A DNA stretch of 35,345 nt, from assembly GCA_947471365.1 (NCBI GenBank), contig CANIWQ010000018.1:1-35345 (forward strand), in the 5' to 3' direction. Of this stretch, positions 2,028 to 35,166 are shown piece by piece. Position numbers and translations under genes: made by a program. This DNA comes from Gemmatimonadota bacterium (GTDB lineage Bacteria > Gemmatimonadota > Gemmatimonadetes > Gemmatimonadales > Gemmatimonadaceae). Every line of letters starts with the position of its first letter. Within the stretch, counting starts at the first letter, position 1. The notes below the pieces were generated by a model that was given only the letters and a program-made list of their open reading frames with translations, did not search any database and was not told where the DNA came from.

Positions 2028-2137
2028 GCTTGCTCCCTTCTGCCGCACGGACTAGCTTTGAGAGGTTATTCCCCGACCATGTCCCTTCGCCTTTTTTTGA
2101 GAGCCGCTCGCTTCCCGCGAGCGCGCGCCGACACCTA

Positions 2138-3175
2138 ATGCGCTGGCCGTTCTTCAAGAGGGGTTCGTTGTTCCCCGCCAACGCGATCGCCGTGGATCTT
2201 GGCACGGCGAACACTCTGGTGTACGTGAAGGGCGAGGGGATCGTGCTCAACGAGCCCTCGGTGGTCGCGATGGATCGCGAAACCAAAAAGATTAAGGGCG
2301 TGGGCCTCGAAGCCAAGCGGATGCTCGGTCGCACGCCGGATGGCATCATTGCCGTTCGCCCGATGAAGGACGGCGTGATTGCCGACTTCGACGTCACTGA
2401 GAAGATGTTGCGCTATTTTCTCACGCTGATCATCGACAACCATGTGTTCAAGGTGAAGCCACGGGTGATTGTGTGTGTACCGTCTGGTATCACCGAAGTG
2501 GAAAAGCGCGCGGTGCGCGACTCCGCGCTGGGCGCTGGCGCCAAAGAAGTGTTTATGGTCGCCGAGCCAATGGCGGCGGCGATTGGCGTGGGGCTGCCGG
2601 TGGAAACGCCGACGGGCAACATGGTCATCGACATTGGCGGCGGCACGACGGAAATCGCGGTGATTGCGCTCTCGGGCATCGTCAGCGACACGTCGATCCG
2701 TGTGGGTGGCGATGAACTCGACATGGCTATCGTGCAGTTCATGCGCAAAAGCTACAACTTGCTGATCGGGGAACCGACGGCAGAGATGATTAAGATTCAG
2801 ATCGGCTCGGCGGCTCCGATGGGCGAAGAGCGCGAGATGGAAGTCAAGGGTCGCGATCTTGTGTCGGGCATTCCGAAAACCGTGCGCGTGCACTCCGCGG
2901 AGATTCGCGAGGCGTGTCAGGAACCGGTTCAGCAGATTGTGGATGCGGTGCGTCGCGCGCTCGAAATTACGCCGCCGGAGTTGGCGAGCGACATTGTCGA
3001 TCGCGGCATCGTGATGACCGGTGGCGGCGCCCTCATTCGCGGGCTCGATATTTTGCTCACGCAGGAGACCGGTCTGCCGATTCACGTTGACGAGGATCCG
3101 CTCACGTGCGTGGTGCGTGGGTGCGGACGCATTCTCGATGACGAGGAGAAGTACTGGTCGGTCCTGAGCACCTGA
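2138..3175 (+). CDS. mreB: Rod-shape-determining actin homologue MreB
   Basis: A 345-residue protein, the normal MreB length. It assembles as membrane-bound filaments that direct lateral wall synthesis by the elongasome. Visible actin-fold motifs are the phosphate-1 loop [14 protein letters not shown] near residue 20, the phosphate-2 region [12 protein letters not shown], and the adenosine motif [15 protein letters not shown] near the C-terminus. The N-terminus MRWPFFKR is basic and hydrophobic, as expected for membrane binding. The ATG at 2138 gives the family length but has no good ribosome site. A 7-bp hairpin (2105-2111 with 2117-2123) lies just upstream and may affect initiation. A weak promoter-like pair, TTGCTC at 2030 and TAGCTT at 2053, is the best I could find. 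It is the first gene of the mre-mrdA-rodA cluster. Confidence 0.97.
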
Positions 3176-3191
3176 AGCTCGACCGCCCCCA

Positions 3192-4196
3192 GTGCAGCGA
3201 TCCACGCGGACGGATCCACGGATAGATATTGTCTTGGTGGCGGCCTGTGTGGCCGTGTCGCTCGCCTGTCTGGTGTTGCCGACCGCCATGCGCGACTCCG
3301 CCGCCGCGGCTATGCGCGCGACGCTGGTATCCCCGCTCTTCACGCTACAGTCGCGCGCCGAGGTGTCGCGACACGCGCTTCTCAGTCGCGACGCGGCGCT
3401 CCGGTTGGTGGACAGCGTGACGGTTCGCTCGCAGCGAGTCTCGGGGCTCGAGGCTGAGAACGAGCGCCTGCGCCTGCTGCTCGGCCTAGGGGCTGGGCTC
3501 CGCTGGGGCTTTGTGCCTGCCGAAGTGCTGCAGGGGCGAGGGCTTGGTGACGAGTTTACGGTGACGCTGACGGCGGGCGAGCGGGACGGGGTCGAGCCGT
3601 TGTCGGCCGTGGTCGCCCCGGAAGGGATTGTGGGGGTGGTGGAGCGCGTGGATCAATCCGTCTCGATGGCGATTCTCTGGCCGCACCCGGATTTCCGCGT
3701 GAGCGCCATGGCCGCTGACGAGAGCGCGTACGGTATTGTGTCGTCGCATGCCGCGATCGGCGCAGCGCGATACCTCCTTGAAATGCGCAGTGTGTCGTTG
3801 CGCACACCCCTGAAGGCGGGAGCGGTTATTGTGAGTTCAGGCCTTGGCGGGGTGTTTCCGCGTGGCATCCCGGTGGGAACCGTGGTGTCGGAACTCCGCA
3901 GCGCGGAGGGCATCACGCGTAGTTACCTCCTCCGTCCGATGGTGCGGCTCCCAGATGTGGCATCGGTGATTGTGCTTCGCCCCGAGCGTGCGCGCGCCGG
4001 CACAAGCGGCGTATGGCAGCTCGGGCCGGCGGCCGACAGCTCGACCAAGCGAGTCCTCGCGGCCGCTGATTCGCTCGCGAAGCGCGCGGTGGCCGATTCC
4101 ATCGGTCGGCGCGCACGCGCGGATTCAGTGTGGCGCCGCTCCATCGTGGGCGATTCGATCTCGCGGACGCGTCCCGACGCCGGACGGAAGCCGTGA
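3192..4196 (+). CDS. mreC: Rod-shape-determining protein MreC
   Basis: A 334-residue bitopic protein starting at GTG. It has a short cytoplasmic N-terminus, one membrane helix (about residues 13-35), a coiled-coil segment around SGLEAENERLRLLL (~83-96), then the periplasmic beta domains (GDEFTVTLTAG, GIVGVVERVD, SSGLGGVFPRGIPVGTV). MreC scaffolds PBP2-RodA and activates wall synthesis. The C-terminal ~54 residues are unusual: ADSSTKR, ADSLAKR, ADSIGRR and ADSVWRR recur at 9-11-residue intervals (281-316), followed by GDSISR. The result is a basic, periodic tail after the conserved domain. The gene starts 16 bases after mreB and overlaps mreD by a GTGA stop-start. Confidence 0.95.
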   Translation: MQRSTRTDPRIDIVLVAACVAVSLACLVLPTAMRDSAAAAMRATLVSPLFTLQSRAEVSRHALLSRDAALRLVDSVTVRSQRVSGLEAENERLRLLLGLGAGLRWGFVPAEVLQGRGLGDEFTVTLTAGERDGVEPLSAVVAPEGIVGVVERVDQSVSMAILWPHPDFRVSAMAADESAYGIVSSHAAIGAARYLLEMRSVSLRTPLKAGAVIVSSGLGGVFPRGIPVGTVVSELRSAEGITRSYLLRPMVRLPDVASVIVLRPERARAGTSGVWQLGPAADSSTKRVLAAADSLAKRAVADSIGRRARADSVWRRSIVGDSISRTRPDAGRKP

Positions 4197-23773: not shown

Positions 23774-24055
23774 CGGCGACATGGGCGGTTCGGTCTTTGT
23801 AACTGCCGATCACGCCTCTCCGCAGAACGATCGCAGCGATAGCGAGTGATCTTAGTAACCGTGGATGGAATCCCGCCCCAATTATCGGGGTCAGCTGGCA
23901 GCTGGCAGCTGCAGGCTAGCGCAACAGCTAGCCGTCGAGCAGGTTACAATGTCGCTTTTGAGACAGCTACCGCCGTCAGCCGGAGTTGACGGGTTTCGGT
24001 GGTTAACGGACTGGATTTGGTGTTTGGAAAATCATCCCATTTTTTGGAGTTCGTA
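23774..24055 (+). other. Leader region of the second susC operon
   Basis: No gene is seen in these 282 bases. They hold three tandem heptamers, CAGCTGG twice then CAGCTGC (23892-23912), followed at once by a 7-bp hairpin (23914-23920 with 23927-23933; loop GCAACA). A good -10-like TACAAT lies at 23945-23950 but has no convincing -35. A GGAG ribosome site (24046-24049) serves susC. The operon promoter most likely lies here. The repeats and hairpin could be a regulator or RNA-binding site, but that is unproven. Confidence 0.4.
23868..23877 (+). repeat. Short direct repeat of the ssrA 3' end
   Basis: The 10-mer GAATCCCGCC repeats bases 23699-23708 of ssrA (T-loop into T-stem and acceptor) 169 bases further on. 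The 3' ends of tmRNA genes are classic integration targets, so this could be a decayed attachment site. It is short, and no integrase is visible. Confidence 0.3.
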
Positions 24056-27000
24056 ATGAAGTTTCTCAGTGTCCCTTATTCGGTCTTGCGGCGCGCTGCG
24101 GGGATATTCGCCTGCGGGGGTTTGGCTATCCTCGCAGTCGCTGGGCCAGCCGATCTACACGCTCAGGCCACCGGAATCATTCGAGGCACGATCACGTCAG
24201 ATCGTATGATGACGCCGATCGAGGGGGTTCAGGTATCGGTTGTTGGTGATGCGAGATTCGCGCGCACGGACGCCGCTGGTCGGTTCCGCTTGACTGGCGT
24301 GACCGCCGGTGCGCAGATGGTGCGCGCCCTTCGCATCGGTTACGCGGTACAGACGAGCGCCGTCACCGTGTCGCCCCGAGATAGTGCCACCGTCAACTTT
24401 GTCCTCAAAGATGCGGCGCTCTCCCTCGACGCGGTTGTGGTGACAGGAACGGCTGCTGAAGCGCGCAAAAAGGAAGTGGGCAACGCCATGGCCACGATTG
24501 ATTCGCGGTCGCTCGAGTCGGCGCCGGTCAAGGATGCCCAGGACATGATTGCCGCACGCGCGCCGGGTGTCACCGTGATGGGCAACTCCGGGCAGCCGGG
24601 AGCCGGCGGCACGATTCGCTTGCGGGGCAGCAACAGCATCACGCAAGGTAATGCTCCGATCATCTACGTCGACGGCATTCGCATCTACAGTTCAGGAGGG
24701 CCGATCACGCCTTCTGCGCGTCAGAGCGCCGCAGCGTTTAATGATATCAAGGCCGACGAGATTGAACGCATCGAAATCGTCAAGGGTGCCGCGGCCACGA
24801 CGCTGTACGGCACCGAGGCGTCGGGTGGCGTGTTGCAGATCTTTACGAAACGTGGCTCAGCTGGCGCGCCGCAGTGGAACGTGGCCACAGGCGCCGGTCT
24901 CAATGTCATGGGGCACGTCGGTCCGGCCTCGGACCCGACGGGACTCGGTCTCAACAATTGCTCGGGTATCCGTACCGACGGCACCGGGCTCAAATTCACA
25001 GATCCCACCTGCCCTGCGAACGGCAGTTGGCTTCAGAATGGTGCGGTCAAACGCCTTGAAGCCGACGTCAAGGGCGGTGGGGAGAATATGACCTATTTCC
25101 TTTCCGGCAACTACAACGAGAATCAAGGTGCGGTAAGAACCGGGTATCAAAAGGATGGCGGCTTCCGCGCCAACTTTACGTTTACGCCAAGCAAGAACGT
25201 GGTGATCGGGCTGAATACGTCGTATAACAAGAAGTCGATTGGTTGGCTCGGCGATGGAAATCTGGCCAATGGATTCACGTTGAACGTCATGCGCGGCCCG
25301 AGCAATAATTTTAAGGGTGGCAAGGGGACGGACTGCAACGCCGCCGTTGCGGCCGGTGTGACGTGCATTACCGACGGCTATGTGCTCGATCAGGTGGTCA
25401 CGAATAATTCCGATCACTTTATTACCGGCATGTCGCTGGCGTGGAGTCCGTTTGCGGCTCTCAGTAATCGTCTGAACGTCGGATTTGACTTCAATGCCAG
25501 TAATAACAATTCGCTTCTGCCGTTCGGTTTCCTGAATCTGGCGACCGGATCGCTGAATACGTCGGACTGGAATCACACGAAACTTTCTATTGATTACGCG
25601 GGCTCGTTTCAGAGCACGGTGTTGAAGCGGTTTGCTTCCACGCTGTCATGGGGCGGCCAGTTGTTCGACGATCGCGAGCGCTTTACCGGAATCAATGGCA
25701 CGCTACTCGCTGGACCCGGAGATCCGACGATCGCCTCCTTCGCCACGGTCACGCTCGGGTCCGCTTCCCAGCCGCGTGTGGTGAATGCCGGATTCTTCCT
25801 GCAGGAAATGCTCGGCTGGAACGACCGCCTGTTTCTTACGGCTGGATTGCGCGTCGATGGCAACAGTGCGTTCGGCTCCAACTTTGGATTGCAGGCGTAT
25901 CCGAAGGTGAGTGCTGCGTGGGTCTTGTCGGAGGAAAAGTGGTGGCCGACGACCTATGTCTCGACGATGAAGTTGCGCGCGGCGGTTGGAGAGTCCGGGA
26001 AGGCGCCGGGTGCCTTTGACGCGGTTCGCACGTGGGATCCGGTCGCCGGAGACGAAGGGAAACCCGGCGTCTCTGTTGCACAGCGCGGCAATGCGCAGCT
26101 CGGACCTGAGCGCACGCGCGAAGTTGAAGTCGGCTTTGATGCAAGCGGGCTCGGCGACCGGCTCTCGCTGGAGGTCACGGGATTCCGAGCGCGGACGTAC
26201 GGCGCGCTGATCGGTGTCGTGTTCCCACCGTCCGAAGGATTCTCGCGGACGCAGTTGCAGAACGTCGGCACGTTGGAGAATAAAGGGCTCGAAATGCAGT
26301 TGAACGCCGGCTTGGTGCGTTCGGCCAAGTTCGAATGGGAAGCGCGGGTGAGTTTGACCTCGCTTGCCAGCAACACCATCAACGTTGGTCATGTGCCGAT
26401 TTCGACGGGACTTGGCAGCTATGTGCGTGAGGGATATCCCGTGCCGGGAATCTTTGGCGCGAGAATCACCAACCCCAACGCCATCGCGGATCCCATCGTG
26501 GCGACCGATCAGTACCGCGGCTCTGTCTACCCCACGCGTATCATCGGCTTGGGGACGACCATCACCTTGCGGCGCGATTTGACCTTGGACGTGTTGGGTG
26601 AGTATCAGGCGGGTGGCCACCTCACGAACTTCATTGGCTTCCAGGGCGAGTCACGCAACATCTGGCAGCCCTGCTACGACACCCAGTCGAAGCTCCGCGC
26701 CTACAATGGTGCGGACGGAAAGAAAGGCACGGCAGACGACGTGACGTCGGCACTCGACGGCGTGACCGCTTTACAGCGTGGCCGCTGCGCGATCGATGCG
26801 ACGGTTCGCAATAGCGATTTCTGGATTTCTGAGAGCGACTTCTTCAAGCTGCGCTCCATCTCGCTGTCGTATCGCATTCCGGCGCGTTTTCTGCATGGCG
26901 CCAAGGCAGCGACGATCTCGGTTGCTGGACGGAATCTGTTCACCAGCACGAAGTACGATGGCGTAGATCCCGAAGCCAATGACGCCTCCGATGCCGCCAC

Positions 27001-27076
27001 CGGCTTGGGTCGCCGTGAGTACTACCAGTTACCGCCGTTCAAGTCTGTGCTGGCGACGCTGCGAATCACTTTCTAA
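24056..27076 (+). CDS. SusC/RagA-like TonB-dependent outer-membrane receptor (complete)
   Basis: A 1006-residue receptor. I chose ATG 24056 because a GGAG lies six bases upstream and a clear signal peptide follows (cleavage after HAQA, ~residue 38); the open frame extends further upstream without such support. Domains in order are a carboxypeptidase-D regulatory-like domain (about 40-118, IIRGTITSDRMMTPIEGVQV), a TonB-box-like LDAVVVTGT (124-132), the plug (about 140-260, with IRLRGSNSITQGNAPIIYVDG and ERIEIVKGAAATTLYGTEASGG), and a 22-strand-type barrel ending LATLRITF. It imports an unknown solute with its SusD partner. It is separated from ssrA by a strong terminator and starts an operon with susD, an RskA-like lipoprotein gene and a PAP2 gene. 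Confidence 0.95.
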   Translation: MKFLSVPYSVLRRAAGIFACGGLAILAVAGPADLHAQATGIIRGTITSDRMMTPIEGVQVSVVGDARFARTDAAGRFRLTGVTAGAQMVRALRIGYAVQTSAVTVSPRDSATVNFVLKDAALSLDAVVVTGTAAEARKKEVGNAMATIDSRSLESAPVKDAQDMIAARAPGVTVMGNSGQPGAGGTIRLRGSNSITQGNAPIIYVDGIRIYSSGGPITPSARQSAAAFNDIKADEIERIEIVKGAAATTLYGTEASGGVLQIFTKRGSAGAPQWNVATGAGLNVMGHVGPASDPTGLGLNNCSGIRTDGTGLKFTDPTCPANGSWLQNGAVKRLEADVKGGGENMTYFLSGNYNENQGAVRTGYQKDGGFRANFTFTPSKNVVIGLNTSYNKKSIGWLGDGNLANGFTLNVMRGPSNNFKGGKGTDCNAAVAAGVTCITDGYVLDQVVTNNSDHFITGMSLAWSPFAALSNRLNVGFDFNASNNNSLLPFGFLNLATGSLNTSDWNHTKLSIDYAGSFQSTVLKRFASTLSWGGQLFDDRERFTGINGTLLAGPGDPTIASFATVTLGSASQPRVVNAGFFLQEMLGWNDRLFLTAGLRVDGNSAFGSNFGLQAYPKVSAAWVLSEEKWWPTTYVSTMKLRAAVGESGKAPGAFDAVRTWDPVAGDEGKPGVSVAQRGNAQLGPERTREVEVGFDASGLGDRLSLEVTGFRARTYGALIGVVFPPSEGFSRTQLQNVGTLENKGLEMQLNAGLVRSAKFEWEARVSLTSLASNTINVGHVPISTGLGSYVREGYPVPGIFGARITNPNAIADPIVATDQYRGSVYPTRIIGLGTTITLRRDLTLDVLGEYQAGGHLTNFIGFQGESRNIWQPCYDTQSKLRAYNGADGKKGTADDVTSALDGVTALQRGRCAIDATVRNSDFWISESDFFKLRSISLSYRIPARFLHGAKAATISVAGRNLFTSTKYDGVDPEANDASDAATGLGRREYYQLPPFKSVLATLRITF

Positions 27077-27095: not shown

Positions 27096-28325
27096 ATGAA
27101 AACCAAGAGAACTCTCCTGGTTGCCCTCGTCGGTTCGCTGACTGTCGTGGCGTGTCAGGGCTTCCTCGAAGTCACCAATCCAGGGCCTATTGCGGACTCC
27201 AGTCTGCTGACGCCCGACGCTGTGCCCAGTCTCGTGACCGGCATGTCGTCTGATTTTTCAAATAACTACGATGAAATTGTGCGCCTGACGTCCATCGCGG
27301 CGGATGAAAGCGCGCATGGCGGGAGTTATGCCGGCGAGGGGTTGTGGGTGCGCGGGATTATCCGCGCCGAGGATGTGAACACGCACTGGTCCGGCTCGCA
27401 TCAGGTCCGTTTTGAGTCCGAGTCCGGAATCGAGCGGATGAAGGGTATGAAGGGGTTTAGCTATGAGACGAGTGCTCAGGCGGCTCGTGCGAACATGTTT
27501 GCCGGCCTGTCGAATCGGACCTTGGGTGAGAATTTCTGTGAGGCCGTCTTCAACAACGGACCGGCGCAGCCCGGCACCGAATACTTTGTTCGGGCGGAGA
27601 AGTATTTCACGGAAGCGATCCGCGTAGCGCAGGCGGCTACTGGCGCATCGGATATTCTCAATGCGTCGTACGCGGGTCGTGCGGCGGTCCGCGCCGCGCA
27701 GGGTAACTGGACTGGTGCGGTCGCAGACGCGGCCCTTGTCCCAGCGACCTTTGTGTATGTCGCGCCATTTTCCACGAACTCAACTCGTGAGAACAACTCG
27801 CTGGTTCAGGAAACCTACGTGCGACGCGAGTTTAGTGTCTTCGGCACGCAGTGGGCGCAGGTGTTTAAGGATCCGCGTGTGCCGTGGGATACGATCAAGA
27901 CCACCACAGGCGCGATTCAAAAGGGCCAGGATGGATTGACGAATTATTTTCGCCAGGCGAAGTACAAGGATTTAGGTGCCGATATTCCTATTGCAAAAGG
28001 CACGGAGATGTTGATGCTGCGGGCGGAGAATGCGCTCCGCGCTAGCGACATCGGCGGTGCGTATGCTTTTCTCAATCAGGCGCGCGTCGTTGCAGCCATG
28101 ACGCCGCTGACCGTGCCGTCGGATCTTGCCTCCGCGTGGGTGACCTTGCAAAAGGAGCGTGGAGCGACGTTGTGGCTGGAAGGGCGCCGCTTGTGGGACT
28201 TGCGGCGCTGGAATGTGGAGACCGGTCCGTCGCATAGTTCGTTCTTGGACGGTCGCGACAAATGCATTCCGATCGGCCTCGCCGAGTTGCAGACGAACCC
28301 GAATCTGCGTAGTCGTCTTCCGTGA
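27096..28325 (+). CDS. SusD/RagB-like outer-membrane lipoprotein
   Basis: A 409-residue partner of the preceding receptor. I chose ATG 27096 because GAGTGGA lies seven bases upstream and the product begins with a compact lipoprotein signal (TVVAC, lipidated Cys20). ATG 27078, two bases after the susC stop, would add six residues. SusD-type features are the early FLEVTNPGPIADSSLLT, TPR-like helices, a late RGATLWLEGRRLWDLRRWN block, and a C-terminal CIPIGLAELQTNPNL. At ~410 residues it is compact for the family. The stop overlaps the next gene by a GTGA. Confidence 0.92.
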   Translation: MKTKRTLLVALVGSLTVVACQGFLEVTNPGPIADSSLLTPDAVPSLVTGMSSDFSNNYDEIVRLTSIAADESAHGGSYAGEGLWVRGIIRAEDVNTHWSGSHQVRFESESGIERMKGMKGFSYETSAQAARANMFAGLSNRTLGENFCEAVFNNGPAQPGTEYFVRAEKYFTEAIRVAQAATGASDILNASYAGRAAVRAAQGNWTGAVADAALVPATFVYVAPFSTNSTRENNSLVQETYVRREFSVFGTQWAQVFKDPRVPWDTIKTTTGAIQKGQDGLTNYFRQAKYKDLGADIPIAKGTEMLMLRAENALRASDIGGAYAFLNQARVVAAMTPLTVPSDLASAWVTLQKERGATLWLEGRRLWDLRRWNVETGPSHSSFLDGRDKCIPIGLAELQTNPNLRSRLP

Positions 28326-29332
28326 GTTGGATGGTCCGCAGGCTGTCGGCGTTCTTGCCGGCAGCCGTCCTTGCGTGCGCTGGCGGTGCTGAGGTTACAG
28401 CGCCGCCAGCGTACGCGAAGACGATGGTGCTGTCGCTCGCTGGGCTTCCGCCACTCGATGCGCTTCGGGAGGGCAGTTACGAGGCGTGGATGGTAGACCG
28501 TCAGGGCGTCTTTCACTCTGCGGGTCGTTTTGCGCCTTCCGTGTCCGTTGCGCTGACGCTGCCCGAAGCGGTCGCAGACCCCGTGAGCGTGATCATTACG
28601 GTTGAGCCGCCGTTTGATAGCGACGCGCAGCCCTCGAAGCAGCATCTGTTACAAGGTGCGTTCTCTGGTGCCAATGCGACGCTCCGCGTCGTCGGAGCGC
28701 TGACCCAGGGCGATCTCGCACTGCGTGAGCGGCCTGGGCAGTTCACCATCTTCACGCCGAGTGACAACGCCATTAATGGCTATCCGTCGCATGAAGAGGC
28801 GGGTATTTGGCTTTTTAATATGGCACCCTTCGACACGCCGCAAGGCGATATGTGGGTGCGACTCACGCAGCTGCAAGCGGGGTGGATTTACGAAGGCTGG
28901 GTGGTACGCGACGTTGGCCTTCCAGGTGCGGTCTGGTTTTCGTATGGCAAGTTTCTCCCAGACCAGACGGGCGCGGTCAGCGCTCGTGATGATCAGGGCT
29001 GGGGGGCGTTTTCGGGGGTGTTGGATTTTGCGAGCGAGCAGTCTGAGGAATTCCCGGGTGGTGATTTTATTTCGAATCCTCTCCATCTCCCCGTGCCGGG
29101 CGATCTCCTCCTCCCATTGAATCTGACGGAGAAGACCGCCGCCGGCGGGAGCCGTTGGACGCACGTTATTACTATTGAACCCGCGTGGAATAAAGGGGAA
29201 GGGTTAGCCACGGAGCGTCCCTTTTTCCTCGCGCCGTATAGCGACGCTGTTGGCAGCGGCGGGCCGGGATTACCGCGTACCATCACGTATCGTGCGTCGG
29301 TCATTCCCAGTGGGTCGGCGGTGCTTCGATGA
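28322..29332 (+). CDS. Predicted lipoprotein with RskA C-terminal-like repeats
   Basis: A 336-residue protein of uncertain function. It starts at GTG 28322, overlapping the susD stop (GTGA); ATG 28331 is an in-frame alternative. The signal ends near VLACAGG (Cys19), suggesting lipidation. Two segments resemble the extracytoplasmic fold of RskA-type anti-sigma factors: LSLAGLPPLDALREGSYEAW with SAGRFAPS (about 37-77), and LTQLQAGWIYEGWVV with YGKFLPD (about 180-215). No zinc-binding anti-sigma domain and no transmembrane helix beyond the signal is seen, and no sigma gene is near, so a regulator is not indicated. A surface or periplasmic accessory of the SusCD system fits the position better. 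The stop overlaps the PAP2 gene (ATGA). Confidence 0.65.
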   Translation: MSWMVRRLSAFLPAAVLACAGGAEVTAPPAYAKTMVLSLAGLPPLDALREGSYEAWMVDRQGVFHSAGRFAPSVSVALTLPEAVADPVSVIITVEPPFDSDAQPSKQHLLQGAFSGANATLRVVGALTQGDLALRERPGQFTIFTPSDNAINGYPSHEEAGIWLFNMAPFDTPQGDMWVRLTQLQAGWIYEGWVVRDVGLPGAVWFSYGKFLPDQTGAVSARDDQGWGAFSGVLDFASEQSEEFPGGDFISNPLHLPVPGDLLLPLNLTEKTAAGGSRWTHVITIEPAWNKGEGLATERPFFLAPYSDAVGSGGPGLPRTITYRASVIPSGSAVLR

Positions 29333-30786
29333 ATTCCGTTCGGTCTGTACGCCGCGGCATGATGGGCCTGCTCGTCGTTGGAGTGGTGCTCGGAGGAGTC
29401 GAGGGGTGCGGGATCCTCGCCACGGAGACGAAGCACAGCGCTGTGGTGGAGATGGACTCTACGGGTGGACAGTGGGCGACTTGGGCTCTTGTGAATCGCG
29501 CCGAGGTACGCCCCGCGCCGCCGCCCGTAGCCGGTTCGACGCAGGCCGGGCAAGAGATCAGCGAAATTCTCGCGCTGCAACACGGTTTGGATGCCGCAAC
29601 GCGAGGCCGGATTGCTCAGTGGGACGGACTCCCATCCGTTCTGTGGACAGAGGTCGCCCTTGAGCGCCTCGCGTTGTATTGGCCCCTGTTACCGGATGTC
29701 CGACTCGCGACCCCGGTGCGGTCGACCCGCATCATGGCGCTGCTCCATATCGCCGTGTACGACGCTCTGGTCGCCGCGTGGGACGCAAAGTTCATGTATC
29801 ATCGTGCCGCGCCTTCGACCGCGGATGCTCGGGTTCAGGCGCTCACTGCTCGGAGTGACCTCCCGAGCTACCCATCGGAGCATGCGGCGGCGGCGGCGGC
29901 GGCCGCCGCCGTGCTCGGCTATCTGTTTCCGCTCGACGATAGTGCGCAGTTTACGGCGCAAGCTCGCGCGGCGGCAGAGACTCGGATCGCGGCCGGTGCG
30001 AACTACCGGAGTGACGTGGAGGCGGGGCTCGCGCTCGGCGCGAAAGTGGCGGCGCGCGTCATCGCGCTAGCGAAAGCAGACGGCTCTGCGTTCGAGGCCA
30101 AAGTGGCCATTCCAACGGGTTCCTATTTCTGGAAGCCGACCCCCCCGCGGGCGGTGGCGATTCCATTCGATGTCGGCGCTGGCGGCTGGCGCACGTGGGT
30201 CCTGCGGTCGGGGAGCCAGTATAGGCCCGCCCCTCCGCCGATTCCGGGCCAAGCGCTGTTCGATGCGAGCCTCGATGAGCTCCGGCGACTCTCGACATCG
30301 CGTACGACGGCGCAGGCAGATACCGCACGATATTGGGCATCTGAGGCACCATCGGCGCGGTGGGAAGCCTTCATGCAGGATGAGCTAAGGAAACGCCGGG
30401 TTTCACCGCTCCGGGCGGCGCGGGCACAGGCGCTCGCGAGCGTGGCGAGCTTTGACGCGCTCGTTGCGTGCTGGGACGGAAAGTTTTTCTACTGGATGGA
30501 ACGCCCGATCACGGCAGATCCTGCGCTGGTGACGGTCTTTGCGACGCCGCCGTTTCCTAGTTACCCATCGGGACACTCGACGCAGTCGGCCGCCATGGCC
30601 GCCGTGTTCGCTGAACTCTTCCCAGATAGCGCGAATGTGTATCTCGCGAGAGCGGGAGCGGCGTCCGTCTCGCGGGTTTTGGGTGGCATCCATTTTCGAT
30701 TCGACGTCGTCGCGGGTGAACAGCTCGGCAAGCAGGTGGGCGCCGCGGTCGTCGCCTGGGCCAGGGCAGACGGGTCGACGCGGTAA
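29329..30786 (+). CDS. Tandem-duplicated PAP2-superfamily protein (phosphatase or vanadium haloperoxidase-like)
   Basis: A 485-residue exported protein (hydrophobic signal, possible lipid Cys27) built of two similar ~200-240-residue units. Each unit starts with a Gly-Gly/Trp-Thr-Trp segment and RPAPPP (61-66 and 299-304), then a helix with DALVA-WD-KF, then the PAP2 core. The second unit has all PAP2 residues: Lys385 with Arg392-Pro393, PSGH (413-416), and SR-x5-H-x3-D with Arg449, His455 and Asp459. In the first unit the aligned residues are Lys154, Ala161 for Arg, PSEH (182-185), and Asn225 for the nucleophile His, so it is probably inactive. PAP2 folds serve acid phosphatases, lipid phosphatases and vanadium haloperoxidases; the DALVA-WD-K helix leans toward the haloperoxidase branch. 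It is the last gene of the susCD operon. Confidence 0.88.
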   Translation: MNSVRSVRRGMMGLLVVGVVLGGVEGCGILATETKHSAVVEMDSTGGQWATWALVNRAEVRPAPPPVAGSTQAGQEISEILALQHGLDAATRGRIAQWDGLPSVLWTEVALERLALYWPLLPDVRLATPVRSTRIMALLHIAVYDALVAAWDAKFMYHRAAPSTADARVQALTARSDLPSYPSEHAAAAAAAAAVLGYLFPLDDSAQFTAQARAAAETRIAAGANYRSDVEAGLALGAKVAARVIALAKADGSAFEAKVAIPTGSYFWKPTPPRAVAIPFDVGAGGWRTWVLRSGSQYRPAPPPIPGQALFDASLDELRRLSTSRTTAQADTARYWASEAPSARWEAFMQDELRKRRVSPLRAARAQALASVASFDALVACWDGKFFYWMERPITADPALVTVFATPPFPSYPSGHSTQSAAMAAVFAELFPDSANVYLARAGAASVSRVLGGIHFRFDVVAGEQLGKQVGAAVVAWARADGSTR

Positions 30787-30935: not shown

Positions 30936-33299
30936 ATGCCATACGTCCGATTCCGCTCCCTTGCCTCCGCGATCTTGTGCGCGCTCGCCCTCGCAACGCC
31001 CGCCGCCGCTCAAAAATCAACCGCTAAACCGCTCCCCAATTTTGAGCAGATGTTCGGCTTCAAACCGGGCGCGGACCGTACGCTGCCGAGTTGGAAGCAA
31101 GTCACCGAGTACTTCACCGCGCTCAGCAAAGTGAGCCCGCGCGTCCAACTGCGCACGCTCGGCAAAACCGTCCTTGGGCGCCCGTTTCTCGTGGCGTTCA
31201 TTGCCGATTCGAGCACGCTCGCCAACCTCGAGCACTATCGCACCATTCAGCGCAAACTGATGGACCCGCGCGTGCGTACGGCGAGTGACGTGCGAGAGAA
31301 GCTCATTGCCGAAGGGAAGAATGTCATTCTCGTGACCTGCTCCATTCACTCCACCGAAGTTGGCGGCTGGAGCACGGCGCTGGTGCTCGCCGATCGACTC
31401 GCGCGAGCGAGTGACGCCGAGGCGAAGATGATTTTGGCCAACACGATCATTATGCTCGTGCCCAGTCAGAATCCCGACGGCGTGGACATTGTGGGCGACT
31501 GGTATCGCGCCACGCTCAACACGGCGGCCGAAGGAACCAACCCGCCGGAGCTGTATCATCACTACACGGGGCACGACAACAACCGCGATTGGTATGCGTT
31601 CACGCAGCCCGAAACGCGCTACACGGTGGACTCGCTCTACACACCGTGGGACCCGGAAATTGTGAATGACGTGCACCAACAGGGCGGAAATGCGGGGCGC
31701 ATCTTTGTGCCGCCGTACATGGATCCGGTGGAACCGAATATCGATCCGATTCTCACGTCGAGCACGAATGCCTTGGGCCTTCAGATGACGTGGAGCCTGA
31801 TTCAGGGTGGCAAGACCGGCGTCGCGAACAATGCGAGCTACGACCAGTGGAGCCCGGCACGTCAGTATTCGCTCGTGCACCGCGGGGCGCGCGTCCTCAC
31901 AGAAACGGCAAGCGCGCGACTGGCGACGGCGGTGGATGTACCGTTCGACCGGCTCGGCACTGGCCGCGGCTACGATGCGCGTGAGGTCAGTTGGAACTTC
32001 CCGGCGCTTTGGCCAGGCGGGAAGTGGGGGTATCCGGATATTGTCGACTATCAGGTGTCCGCCTCGTGGGCTCTGTTTGTACACGCCGCGCGCGACCGCC
32101 GCGCCTGGCTCGAGTCGTACGCCACGATGGGCGACCGCGCACTCGGCACGATGCCCGCGTGGGGGAAAGACCCGTGGCCGACGGCGTTCATTATTCCTAA
32201 GTCGCAGAGCAGCGCCAGTTCGCTGCAGCGGATGATCTGGACACTCCAGCACGGTCAGGTAGAAGTACGCGAAACGACTGCGCCGGCGTCCGTTGATGGA
32301 AAGACGTATCCCGCTGGGAGCTACGCGGTGCTCGTGAAGCAGCCCTTTGGTGGCTATGCCAAGTCGCTGCTCGAACGGCAGAAGTATCCGAATCTCTTTG
32401 AATATCCTGGCGGGCCGCCCAAGCGGCCGTATGACGTGACGGCGCACACGCTGCCGTTGCTGTTCGGCGTGGAGGTGGCCACGGTGATGGGCGCCGCGCC
32501 CACCACGGGGAAGGTGGTCGCCGAGGTGAAGGAGCCGACGTTTACGGCGCCGTCGCTCTCGGGTGTGAGCAGCAAACGTATTGGCATCTATAAGAGCTTT
32601 GCGGAGTCCATGGATGAAGGGTGGACGCGCTATGTGTTTGATACCTATCGCGTGCCCTTTACCTCCTTGCACGACAACGACGTAAAGGCGGGCAATCTCA
32701 TTGCGAAGTACGACGTGATCATCATGCCGGCGCAGTCGGCTAATTCGATTGTGCGGGGAGTGGGGAATGCGTATCCGGATTCGCTGAAGGGCGGACTTGG
32801 CGAGGCTGGTGGTGCGGCGCTGACGGCGTTTGTTGAGGCTGGCGGCACGCTACTCGCATTCAACGAGGCGTCGGAATACGCCATCGAAACGATGAAGCTG
32901 CCGGTCAAGAACGCGCTCGCCGGTGTGCGCAACACGGAGTTCTACGCGCCGGGCTCGATCTTCGCGGTCGAGGTGGATCGCACGAACCCGGTGGCGAAGA
33001 CGTTCAATGCCCCGACGCCGTCTGTTTGGTTTGAAAACAGTCCGGCCTTTGATATTACGGATCCTTCGCAGGCGGTCGCCGTCGCGAAGTATGCCGCCAC
33101 GGGGAACTCGCTGCTCTCCGGTTGGTTGTTGGGTGCGTCCAAACTGAACGGCAAAGCGGCGCTCGTGGACGTCTCAAAGGGGAAGGGGCATGTGATGCTG
33201 TTTGGTTTCCGTCCGCAGTATCGAGGGCAGAGCGAATCGACACTGCCGCTGATTTGGGGCGCGATCTTGCGGGGCACGGACAACGGCGTCAAGCCATAG
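30936..33299 (+). CDS. Secreted M14-family zinc carboxypeptidase
   Basis: A 787-residue peptidase with a Sec signal peptide (LALATPAAAQ, cleavage ~26). The M14 zinc site is visible: SIHSTEVGG (His138, Glu141) and NDVHQQG (His247), with the substrate-binding NPDGVD and HDNNRDWY between them and a likely catalytic Glu in ARVLTETASARL. A C-terminal region (about 545-680, starting KRIGIYKSFAESMDEGW) looks like an amidotransferase/flavodoxin-like alpha/beta domain, as in large bacterial M14 proteins. It would trim peptides outside the inner membrane. It lies 149 bases after the PAP2 gene, so it may have its own promoter; I could not identify one. A hairpin terminator follows. Confidence 0.92.
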   Translation: MPYVRFRSLASAILCALALATPAAAQKSTAKPLPNFEQMFGFKPGADRTLPSWKQVTEYFTALSKVSPRVQLRTLGKTVLGRPFLVAFIADSSTLANLEHYRTIQRKLMDPRVRTASDVREKLIAEGKNVILVTCSIHSTEVGGWSTALVLADRLARASDAEAKMILANTIIMLVPSQNPDGVDIVGDWYRATLNTAAEGTNPPELYHHYTGHDNNRDWYAFTQPETRYTVDSLYTPWDPEIVNDVHQQGGNAGRIFVPPYMDPVEPNIDPILTSSTNALGLQMTWSLIQGGKTGVANNASYDQWSPARQYSLVHRGARVLTETASARLATAVDVPFDRLGTGRGYDAREVSWNFPALWPGGKWGYPDIVDYQVSASWALFVHAARDRRAWLESYATMGDRALGTMPAWGKDPWPTAFIIPKSQSSASSLQRMIWTLQHGQVEVRETTAPASVDGKTYPAGSYAVLVKQPFGGYAKSLLERQKYPNLFEYPGGPPKRPYDVTAHTLPLLFGVEVATVMGAAPTTGKVVAEVKEPTFTAPSLSGVSSKRIGIYKSFAESMDEGWTRYVFDTYRVPFTSLHDNDVKAGNLIAKYDVIIMPAQSANSIVRGVGNAYPDSLKGGLGEAGGAALTAFVEAGGTLLAFNEASEYAIETMKLPVKNALAGVRNTEFYAPGSIFAVEVDRTNPVAKTFNAPTPSVWFENSPAFDITDPSQAVAVAKYAATGNSLLSGWLLGASKLNGKAALVDVSKGKGHVMLFGFRPQYRGQSESTLPLIWGAILRGTDNGVKP

Positions 33300-33369: not shown

Positions 33370-35166
33370 GTGAATACACGCCGCCAGTTTCTGATTACCG
33401 CGCCGCTTGGACTGATTGGTGCGGTGTCCGCCTGTCGCAGTGACACGCAGGCGGCCGCGTCTGCACCACCAGCTGGCGCGCCACCGACCTTTGGCACGAT
33501 GCCCGCCTCTGGGCCCGCCGTGACCACGGCGACCTTTGCGGAGGCCGAAAAGCTGGCGCAGGTAACGATGACCGCCGCTGAACGAGAGCAGGCGGCAGCG
33601 AGTTGGCGGACGTCGATTGCCGCGATGTTAGAACGGCGCACTGGGCCACGCAAAGTGGCGATCAGCGACTCGGTCGCCCCCGCGACGCAGTGGAATCCCG
33701 CGATCGCTGGAACCGTGGCTGGGCCAGCCCACGATCGGTTTATTCGCAGCGCCGGAGCTCCCGGGCCGCTTCCGGCGACGGACGCCGCGATTGCCTTTGC
33801 GCCGGTGACGCAACTCTCGCGTTGGATTGAGACGCGCAAGATCACGTCGGTGCGACTCACAAATATCTATCTCGAGCGGCTTGAGCGATTCACGCCAACG
33901 CTGCGGTGCGTCATTACTCTCACGAAAGAGTTCGCGCTGGCACAGGCGCGCAAAGCCGATGCGGAGATTGCCGCAGGGAAGTATCGGGGGCCGTTGCACG
34001 GCATACCGTATGGCGTCAAGGATTTACTCGATACCGCCGGCATTGCCACGACCTATGGGGCTGAGTTTCACCGCAAACGTGTGCCGACCGCCGATTCTAC
34101 CGTGGTGAAGCGGTTGAATGACGCCGGTGCCGTGTTGGTCGCGAAGTTGAGCTTAGGCGCGCTCGCGCTCAACGACATTTGGTTCGGTGGCCAGACCATG
34201 AACCCGTGGCTGCTCGAAGAAGGGGCGTCCGGCTCCAGCGCAGGCCCTGGCTCGGCGACGGCGGCCGGCCTCGTGGGATTTTCAATCGGCAGCGAAACAG
34301 GGGGGAGTATTGTGAGCCCCGCGATGCGTTGCGGCGTGACGGGGTTGCGCCCGACGTACGGCCGCGTGCCGCGGACCGGCGCGATGACGCTCTGCTGGTC
34401 GCTCGACAAACTCGGCCCGATGACGCGGAGCGTGGAAGACGCAATGCTCGTCTTGCACGCGATCACTGGGCCGGACGGAGCAGACGTCGCGTGCGTCCCG
34501 TGTCACCTCGACTACGATGCGGCCGCGCCGGTGAAGGGATTGCGCGTGGGCTACTTCCCCGCGTGGATGAAGGAAAGTCCCGCGACGGATGTCGACCGCG
34601 CCGCGCTGGAGGCCGTACGGAAGCTTGGGATGATTCCTACTGAGGTCACGCTCCCCGATTGGCCGCACGGGGCGCTGAATGTGGTGCTCTTTGCTGAGGC
34701 CGCCGCCGCCTTCGAAGAGATGACGCTCTCAGGCACTGACGACCAACTCACCTCGCAAGTGAACGACGCCTGGCCAAACTTGTTCCGTCAATCGCGCTTC
34801 TTGTCGGCCGTCGATTTTGTGCAGGCCGACCGGATGCGGCGGATGTTCGCGGCGGAAATGGCGCGCATCTTCCAGCAGGTGGATGTTCTGCTCGTGCCAT
34901 CGCTGCGCGATGAGATGCTCACGGTCTCGAATTTCACGGGGCATCCGTCGCTGACCATGCGGGCCGGATTTGTGCAGGTGGCGGAGGCGCGGAGCGACTG
35001 GGCGCCCGACCCCAAGCACCCGCTGCCGAAGTTTGCGCCACCTCGTCGTGTGCCGCACGGCATCACGCTGCTCGGCAGTCTCTTTGACGAAGGCATCATC
35101 GTGCGCGCCGGACTCGCGTTGGAAAAAGCATTCAACGTGGTCGGCGAAAACCCACCCGGGTTCTAG
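33370..35166 (+). CDS. Tat-exported amidase-signature hydrolase (lipoprotein)
   Basis: A 598-residue protein of the amidase signature (AS) family, which cleaves amides with a Ser-cisSer-Lys triad. The residues are Lys217 (PYGVKDLLD), cis-Ser289 (GASGSSAGPG) and nucleophile Ser313 (ETGGSIVSP); the 24-residue gap between the serines matches well-studied members. The N-terminus reads MNTRRQFL, a twin-arginine motif, followed by a hydrophobic stretch and GAVSAC, a lipobox, so it is probably exported folded and lipidated. An Ala/Pro-rich linker of ~100 residues precedes the domain. The GTG start is set by GGAG seven bases upstream. It is not GatA: it is exported, and no gatB or gatC is nearby. The substrate is unknown. 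Confidence 0.92.
   Translation: MNTRRQFLITAPLGLIGAVSACRSDTQAAASAPPAGAPPTFGTMPASGPAVTTATFAEAEKLAQVTMTAAEREQAAASWRTSIAAMLERRTGPRKVAISDSVAPATQWNPAIAGTVAGPAHDRFIRSAGAPGPLPATDAAIAFAPVTQLSRWIETRKITSVRLTNIYLERLERFTPTLRCVITLTKEFALAQARKADAEIAAGKYRGPLHGIPYGVKDLLDTAGIATTYGAEFHRKRVPTADSTVVKRLNDAGAVLVAKLSLGALALNDIWFGGQTMNPWLLEEGASGSSAGPGSATAAGLVGFSIGSETGGSIVSPAMRCGVTGLRPTYGRVPRTGAMTLCWSLDKLGPMTRSVEDAMLVLHAITGPDGADVACVPCHLDYDAAAPVKGLRVGYFPAWMKESPATDVDRAALEAVRKLGMIPTEVTLPDWPHGALNVVLFAEAAAAFEEMTLSGTDDQLTSQVNDAWPNLFRQSRFLSAVDFVQADRMRRMFAAEMARIFQQVDVLLVPSLRDEMLTVSNFTGHPSLTMRAGFVQVAEARSDWAPDPKHPLPKFAPPRRVPHGITLLGSLFDEGIIVRAGLALEKAFNVVGENPPGF

Follow-up and report, generated by a model that had tools for sequence, protein, structure and literature searches.

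The last gene of a SusCD operon in the window (the whole stretch of 35,345 nucleotides analysed here, from a Gemmatimonadota bacterium) encodes a protein of two homologous PAP2-like units, of which the second has a complete catalytic set and the first has lost its nucleophile. The protein is probably a secreted lipoprotein member of the superfamily of vanadium haloperoxidases (VHPOs) and class A acid phosphatases, with a two-bundle fold and one live unit. What is special here is not the two-unit layout itself but an unusually well preserved and legible first unit, which is clear enough to show that an old duplication gave rise to the two-bundle shape of haloperoxidases. The features of the gene and of its neighbours are listed in Table 1.

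Table 1. Features of the operon and of the two-unit protein, with positions in the window.
Feature	Position	Strand	Evidence
SusC/RagA TonB-dependent outer-membrane receptor	23999..27076	+	TIGR04056 378 bits, above cut-off; conserved beside orthologues
SusD-like lipoprotein	27096..28325	+	PF07980 E 2.4e-9; start reassigned to the ATG that precedes the signal peptide; conserved
336-aa lipoprotein (p336), RskA_C-like domain	28322..29332	+	PF10099 E 2.2e-9; synteny
Tandem-PAP2 VHPO-like lipoprotein gene	29329..30786	+	485-aa ORF; PF01569 E 3e-22; 4cit profile E 1.4e-40
Signal peptide, lipobox Cys27 (VEGC)	29329..29409	+	Sequence; Cys27 invariant in 8/8 clade A members
Unit 1 (residues 46-253), degenerate PAP2/acid-phosphatase-like, with W-x-TW...RPAPPP leader	29464..30087	+	Homology; model helices 71-249
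Unit 1 motif 1: K154 kept, Arg to Ala161, R159 conserved two residues off register	29788..29811	+	
Unit 1 motif 2: PSEH (182-185) replaces PSGH	29872..29883	+	
Unit 1 motif 3: R219, N225 replacing nucleophilic His, D229	29983..30015	+	
Unit 2 (residues 285-485), intact PAP2/VHPO unit	30181..30783	+	Motifs, profiles; model helices 309-479
Unit 2 motif 1: W382, K385, R392, P393	30472..30507	+	Conservation in 80 relatives; aligned with 4cit and 1idu
Unit 2 motif 2: F409, PSGH (413-416)	30553..30576	+	Conservation; alignment
Unit 2 motif 3: R449, nucleophile/vanadate His455, D459	30673..30705	+	Conservation in 80 relatives

Two homologous units and their predicted fold

The halves can be aligned along their whole length, with 37% identity over 215 residues (BLASTP of unit 1 against unit 2, E 3e-35), and their Smith-Waterman score is 338, compared with a mean of 38.6 and a maximum of 73 in 1000 shuffles. 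When the units are compared as profiles the probability is 99.9% (E 1e-36) in clade A, which comprises the window protein and seven orthologues that are 47–55% identical to it, and the E-values are 4e-34 in the Bacteroidota and 2e-13 in a shorter VHPO-like group (clade C); column-shuffled control profiles gave E 0.05 or worse. The repeat exceeds the catalytic core and begins in both units at a common leader, W-x-TW-x-L...RPAPPP, part of which is aligned with the leader PPPP found in class A acid phosphatases. With the Pfam model PF01569 (PAP2, curated cut-off 27.2 bits) the whole protein scores 79.2 bits, most of it from unit 2, and unit 1 alone still scores 42 bits. The two homologous units described in an earlier note on this DNA are thereby borne out, and the motif positions given there are all right. 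RPAPPP is found at 61 and 299, DALVAAWDAKF at 145, DALVACWDGKF at 376, SYPSEH at 180 and SYPSGH at 411.

An AlphaFold2 model built with a 42-sequence alignment (pLDDT 91.5, pTM 0.89; a single-sequence model with pLDDT 36 was set aside) has eight helices per half, in the same order and of like lengths. In unit 1 these are residues 71–85, 89–97, 102–120, 129–157, 162–165, 184–199, 202–221 and 227–249, and in unit 2 residues 309–324, 327–338, 341–356, 360–388, 393–396, 415–430, 432–451 and 457–479. The note had suggested that structure prediction should tell two bundles from one, and this confident model has matching helix sets in both halves and not a single bundle. The near-full-length Foldseek matches are vanadium haloperoxidases (4usz/4cit, 9l8x, 3w36, 8cxl and 1vnc), with 4usz/4cit aligned over 419 columns at TM 0.73 by target and E 2e-14, and matches to single-bundle acid phosphatases cover about 180–200 columns. 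The model and these matches agree on two helical bundles in one chain with the active site in the C-terminal bundle. As the fold matches to VHPOs are nearly full-length, the two-bundle layout is that of the known VHPO architecture and is not peculiar to the gene in the window. The fusion of a pseudo-enzyme with an enzyme, to which the note had drawn attention, is therefore real, but it represents the ordinary architecture of VHPOs, ancient and widespread.

The vanadium iodoperoxidase (VIPO) of Zobellia galactanivorans (4cit/4usz) likewise has two bundles per chain with the live site in the C-terminal one, and it has the motifs W-x2-K-x6-RP, FPxYxSGH and R-x5-H in common with the window protein. 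It differs in that the identity is 23–24% and the unit-1 profile finds its N-terminal bundle weakly, so that the evidence for equating this bundle with unit 1 is the match in fold, the comparison of profiles in clade C and the chain order; unit 1 of the window protein, in contrast, is still above the Pfam PAP2 cut-off. The vanadium chloroperoxidases (VCPOs; Curvularia 1vnc/1idu, Streptomyces NapH1 3w35/3w36 and XhnO11 9l8x) are also two-bundle chains with a C-terminal vanadate site, and their fold matches cover 450–610 columns with an identity of about 16%. The Curvularia enzyme, with 609 residues, is a longer chain, and a separate Pfam model (PF17897 VCPO_N) exists for its N-terminal domain, which unit 1 matches weakly. 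The window protein scores 19.4 bits with this model and 12.2 bits with PF22778 VCPO_2nd, below the cut-offs of 29.3 and 27 bits respectively.

The live site of unit 2 and the degenerate site of unit 1

The protein matches 4cit (E 1.4e-40), the acid phosphatase 7f18 (E 1.2e-20) and the Curvularia VCPO 1idu (E 3.7e-14) in sequence-profile searches, and the motifs W-x2-K-x6-RP and FPxYPSGH align with 4cit and 1idu. By this alignment the vanadate-site residues K353, R360, S402, G403, H404, R490 and H496 of the VCPO, together with W350 and F397, correspond to K385, R392, S414, G415, H416, R449, H455, W382 and F409 of unit 2, where W350 and F397 are the active-site Trp and Phe of the Curvularia enzyme. 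Mutation of H496, K353, R360 and R490 in the VCPO is announced in the title of Hemrika 1999. The catalytic set KX6RP - PSGH - SRX5HX3D is full in unit 2, in agreement with the proposal in the note that the second unit is intact and holds the single live site (K385, R392, PSGH at 413–416, R449, H455, D459). With the clade A alignment as query 377 relatives were found, and 80 non-redundant ones were kept, all with both units; a contig scan of genomes with the single window protein as query found no relatives. W382, R392, P393 and R449 are present in all 80, K385 and H455 in 79, and D459 in 77.

Unit 2 appears to have kept an oxyanion/vanadate site made up of K385, R392, S414, G415, H416, R449, H455 and D459, together with the VHPO-type W382 and F409. 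His455 most likely binds vanadate, and the unit most likely oxidises halide with peroxide. It is conceivable, though rather unlikely, that the live unit in this same architecture is instead a non-specific acid phosphatase, releasing phosphate from organic phosphates or nucleotides for uptake with SusCD. The motifs of the unit are common to class A acid phosphatases, and phosphatase activity has been reported for the Curvularia VHPO itself (PMC4859513). However, W382 (80/80) and F409 occupy the Trp and Phe positions of the VCPO/VIPO active site, at which the aligned 7f18 has other residues, and the full-length fold matches are VHPOs. Each half of the window protein, leader PPPP included, aligns with one whole unit of a class A acid phosphatase (PhoN, the E. 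blattae phosphatase, P. aeruginosa 7f17). These enzymes differ in having one unit per chain; the score with the PhoC model for this class (NF045654) is 44.3 against a cut-off of 430 bits, and the protein is a chain of two units, not one.

In unit 1 the catalytic set is interrupted by A161, E184 and N225, as the note had stated in calling the first unit inactive, and K154, R219 and D229 are found at the positions given there. Two details have to be amended. N225 is right for the window protein, but it is not clade-wide, since this position is Ala in 6/8 clade A members and Ser in 1/8, and never His; and the change from PSGH to PSEH is correct, but the distal His of this motif, H185, is also kept and had been passed over. 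H185, R219 and D229 are invariant in clade A (n = 8). Among the 80 relatives the nucleophilic His is found in unit 1 of none and in unit 2 of 79, so unit 1 is predicted to be incapable of the covalent chemistry of the live site. Homologues with an intact first unit, which by the note's own account should speak against its reading, were sought and amount to 0/80, and by this test that reading is not refuted.

The decay of unit 1 has followed a pattern. K154 is kept in 73/80, D229 in 72/80, P182 in 76/80, E184 in 68/80 and R159, a hallmark of unit 1 offset by two residues from the position of the lost Arg, in 71/80, whereas H185 is kept in 12/80 and R219 in 26/80, indicating that the Gly to Glu exchange is common to most relatives and that H185 and R219 have been lost in a graded manner. 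The two-unit lipoproteins of the Bacteroidota (Spirosoma, Dyadobacter, Chitinophagaceae) and of Bryobacter have the same full-length layout with an inactive unit 1, but mostly with PSED or PSEA and not PSEH. The best preserved first units are those of clade A, Bryobacter, Rufibacter and some Chitinophagaceae, and K-x6-RP is present even in unit 1 of the last three. In clade A, and in the Bryobacter and Rufibacter relatives, the first unit is still recognised as PAP2 by standard models.

The first half is most likely a structural pseudo-unit under constraint, which would be packed as an N-terminal bundle on the active bundle and in effect form a fused pseudo-dimer. A role as a repurposed ligand-binding or regulatory domain, with non-covalent binding of an oxyanion, halide or substrate in the pseudo-site, is unlikely for it. 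P182, P162, K154, D229 and R159 do rank 4, 10, 15, 18 and 19 in conservation among 120 unit-1 positions, and R159 and E184 are both conserved and peculiar to unit 1, but many conserved residues (P201, R134, A146, G237) look structural, and with H185 and R219 lost in most relatives oxyanion binding by unit 1 is not family-wide. There is a slight chance that unit 1 of clade A is an intermediate, in which K154, R159, H185 and R219 hold a non-covalent oxyanion (vanadate or phosphate), for example for loading or regulating the live site; if so, the passage from a phosphatase dimer to a haloperoxidase would be open to study in an existing protein.

Phylogeny of the two units

A tree of 98 units has one branch, supported at 98/90 and present in 97% of bootstrap trees, that separates every first unit from every second unit, and a tree in which the two units of clade A are forced together is rejected (AU p=0.0023). 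As outgroup plasmid-borne class A acid phosphatases were used, with Shigella phoN2 left out; a search within the phylum with the PhoC model found no outgroups. The two units group together against these phosphatases (100/100), and within this group unit 2 makes up a single clade (97/94). The root of unit 1 relative to the outgroups is placed with low support (82/42), where long-branch effects are possible as the first units are fast-evolving. Unit 1 and unit 2 are 35.1% identical within the same protein and 34.4% across proteins, which gives no sign of gene conversion. The trees thus date a single duplication to a time before the two-unit proteins sampled here had spread over Gemmatimonadota, Bacteroidota and Bryobacter, and place a class A acid-phosphatase-like protein as the duplicated ancestor. 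The event would have been a tandem duplication, long ago, of one acid-phosphatase-like unit with its RPxPPP leader included.

A fusion of two different PAP2 proteins, instead of one duplicated, is very improbable, as the two units are separate branches but group together against the outgroups as above and have the leader W-x-TWVL...RPxPPP before the core in common. A recent duplication inside the Gemmatimonadota clade with a decaying first copy, or halves kept alike by gene conversion, is hardly credible despite the striking likeness of the halves in the window protein (37–39%), as unit 1 groups with unit 1 of other phyla and apart from unit 2, the forced tree is rejected, identities within and across proteins are equal, and PSE in unit 1 is common to 68/80 relatives.

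A part for gene duplication and fusion in the evolution of these enzymes has been suggested as a possibility, together with a relationship of vanadium haloperoxidases to acid phosphatases, and the N-terminal bundle of the known structures is described as variable (PMC4859513). The unit-1 sequences presented here lend direct support at the sequence level to such a tentative duplication-fusion origin. The graded decay across phyla and the acid phosphatase outgroup make the proposal testable by sequence and experiment, and provide bacterial proteins for tracing how one site was lost step by step.

Gene neighbourhood

The VHPO-like gene is the last of four tightly packed genes on the + strand, preceded by SusC, the SusD-like gene and the gene of the 336-aa lipoprotein, which overlaps both of its neighbours by 4 bases. 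The setting at the end of a SusCD operon had been pointed out in the note, with the suggestion that relatives should be looked for beside susCD, and SusC, SusD and the 336-aa gene are indeed found in 9/9 clade A loci (the window's own, those of seven relatives and one of Longimicrobiaceae). In each of the nine the 336-aa gene directly precedes the VHPO gene, with SusC-SusD on either side, which points to a rearrangement of the block that left the 336-aa and VHPO genes joined. SusC-SusD is downstream of the VHPO gene in L033, L034 and L038 (genomes G072, G003 and G155) and upstream in the other genomes. The conserved SusCD neighbourhood and the invariant lipobox C27 make a role at the outer membrane likely. 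A literature search found no paper linking haloperoxidases with SusD.

The 336-aa lipoprotein matches RskA_C, the anti-sigma-K C-terminal domain, without an anti-sigma context, and seems to carry a repeated motif (YEAWMVD..GRF / YEGWVVRD..YGKF). The operon is followed by genes for an M14 zinc carboxypeptidase (30936–33299) and an amidase (33370–35166) that are not conserved beside the orthologues.

The Bacteroidota loci inspected differ from the window in that the upstream gene encodes an outer-membrane barrel and a SusD/p336 set of this type is absent. The barrel-like protein, of about 310 residues, is encoded directly upstream of the VHPO-like gene (L096 4832–5818, L063 5105–6001, L066 4871–5830), and that of L066 matches Phenol_MetA_deg; it was compared with the 336-aa protein and no homology was found. 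A TonB receptor is located downstream of the VHPO-like gene in L096. Many Chitinophagaceae loci have a second, divergent VHPO-like gene 1–3 kb upstream on the same strand (L096 at 2048–3460, L091, L098, L105, L110 and L119).
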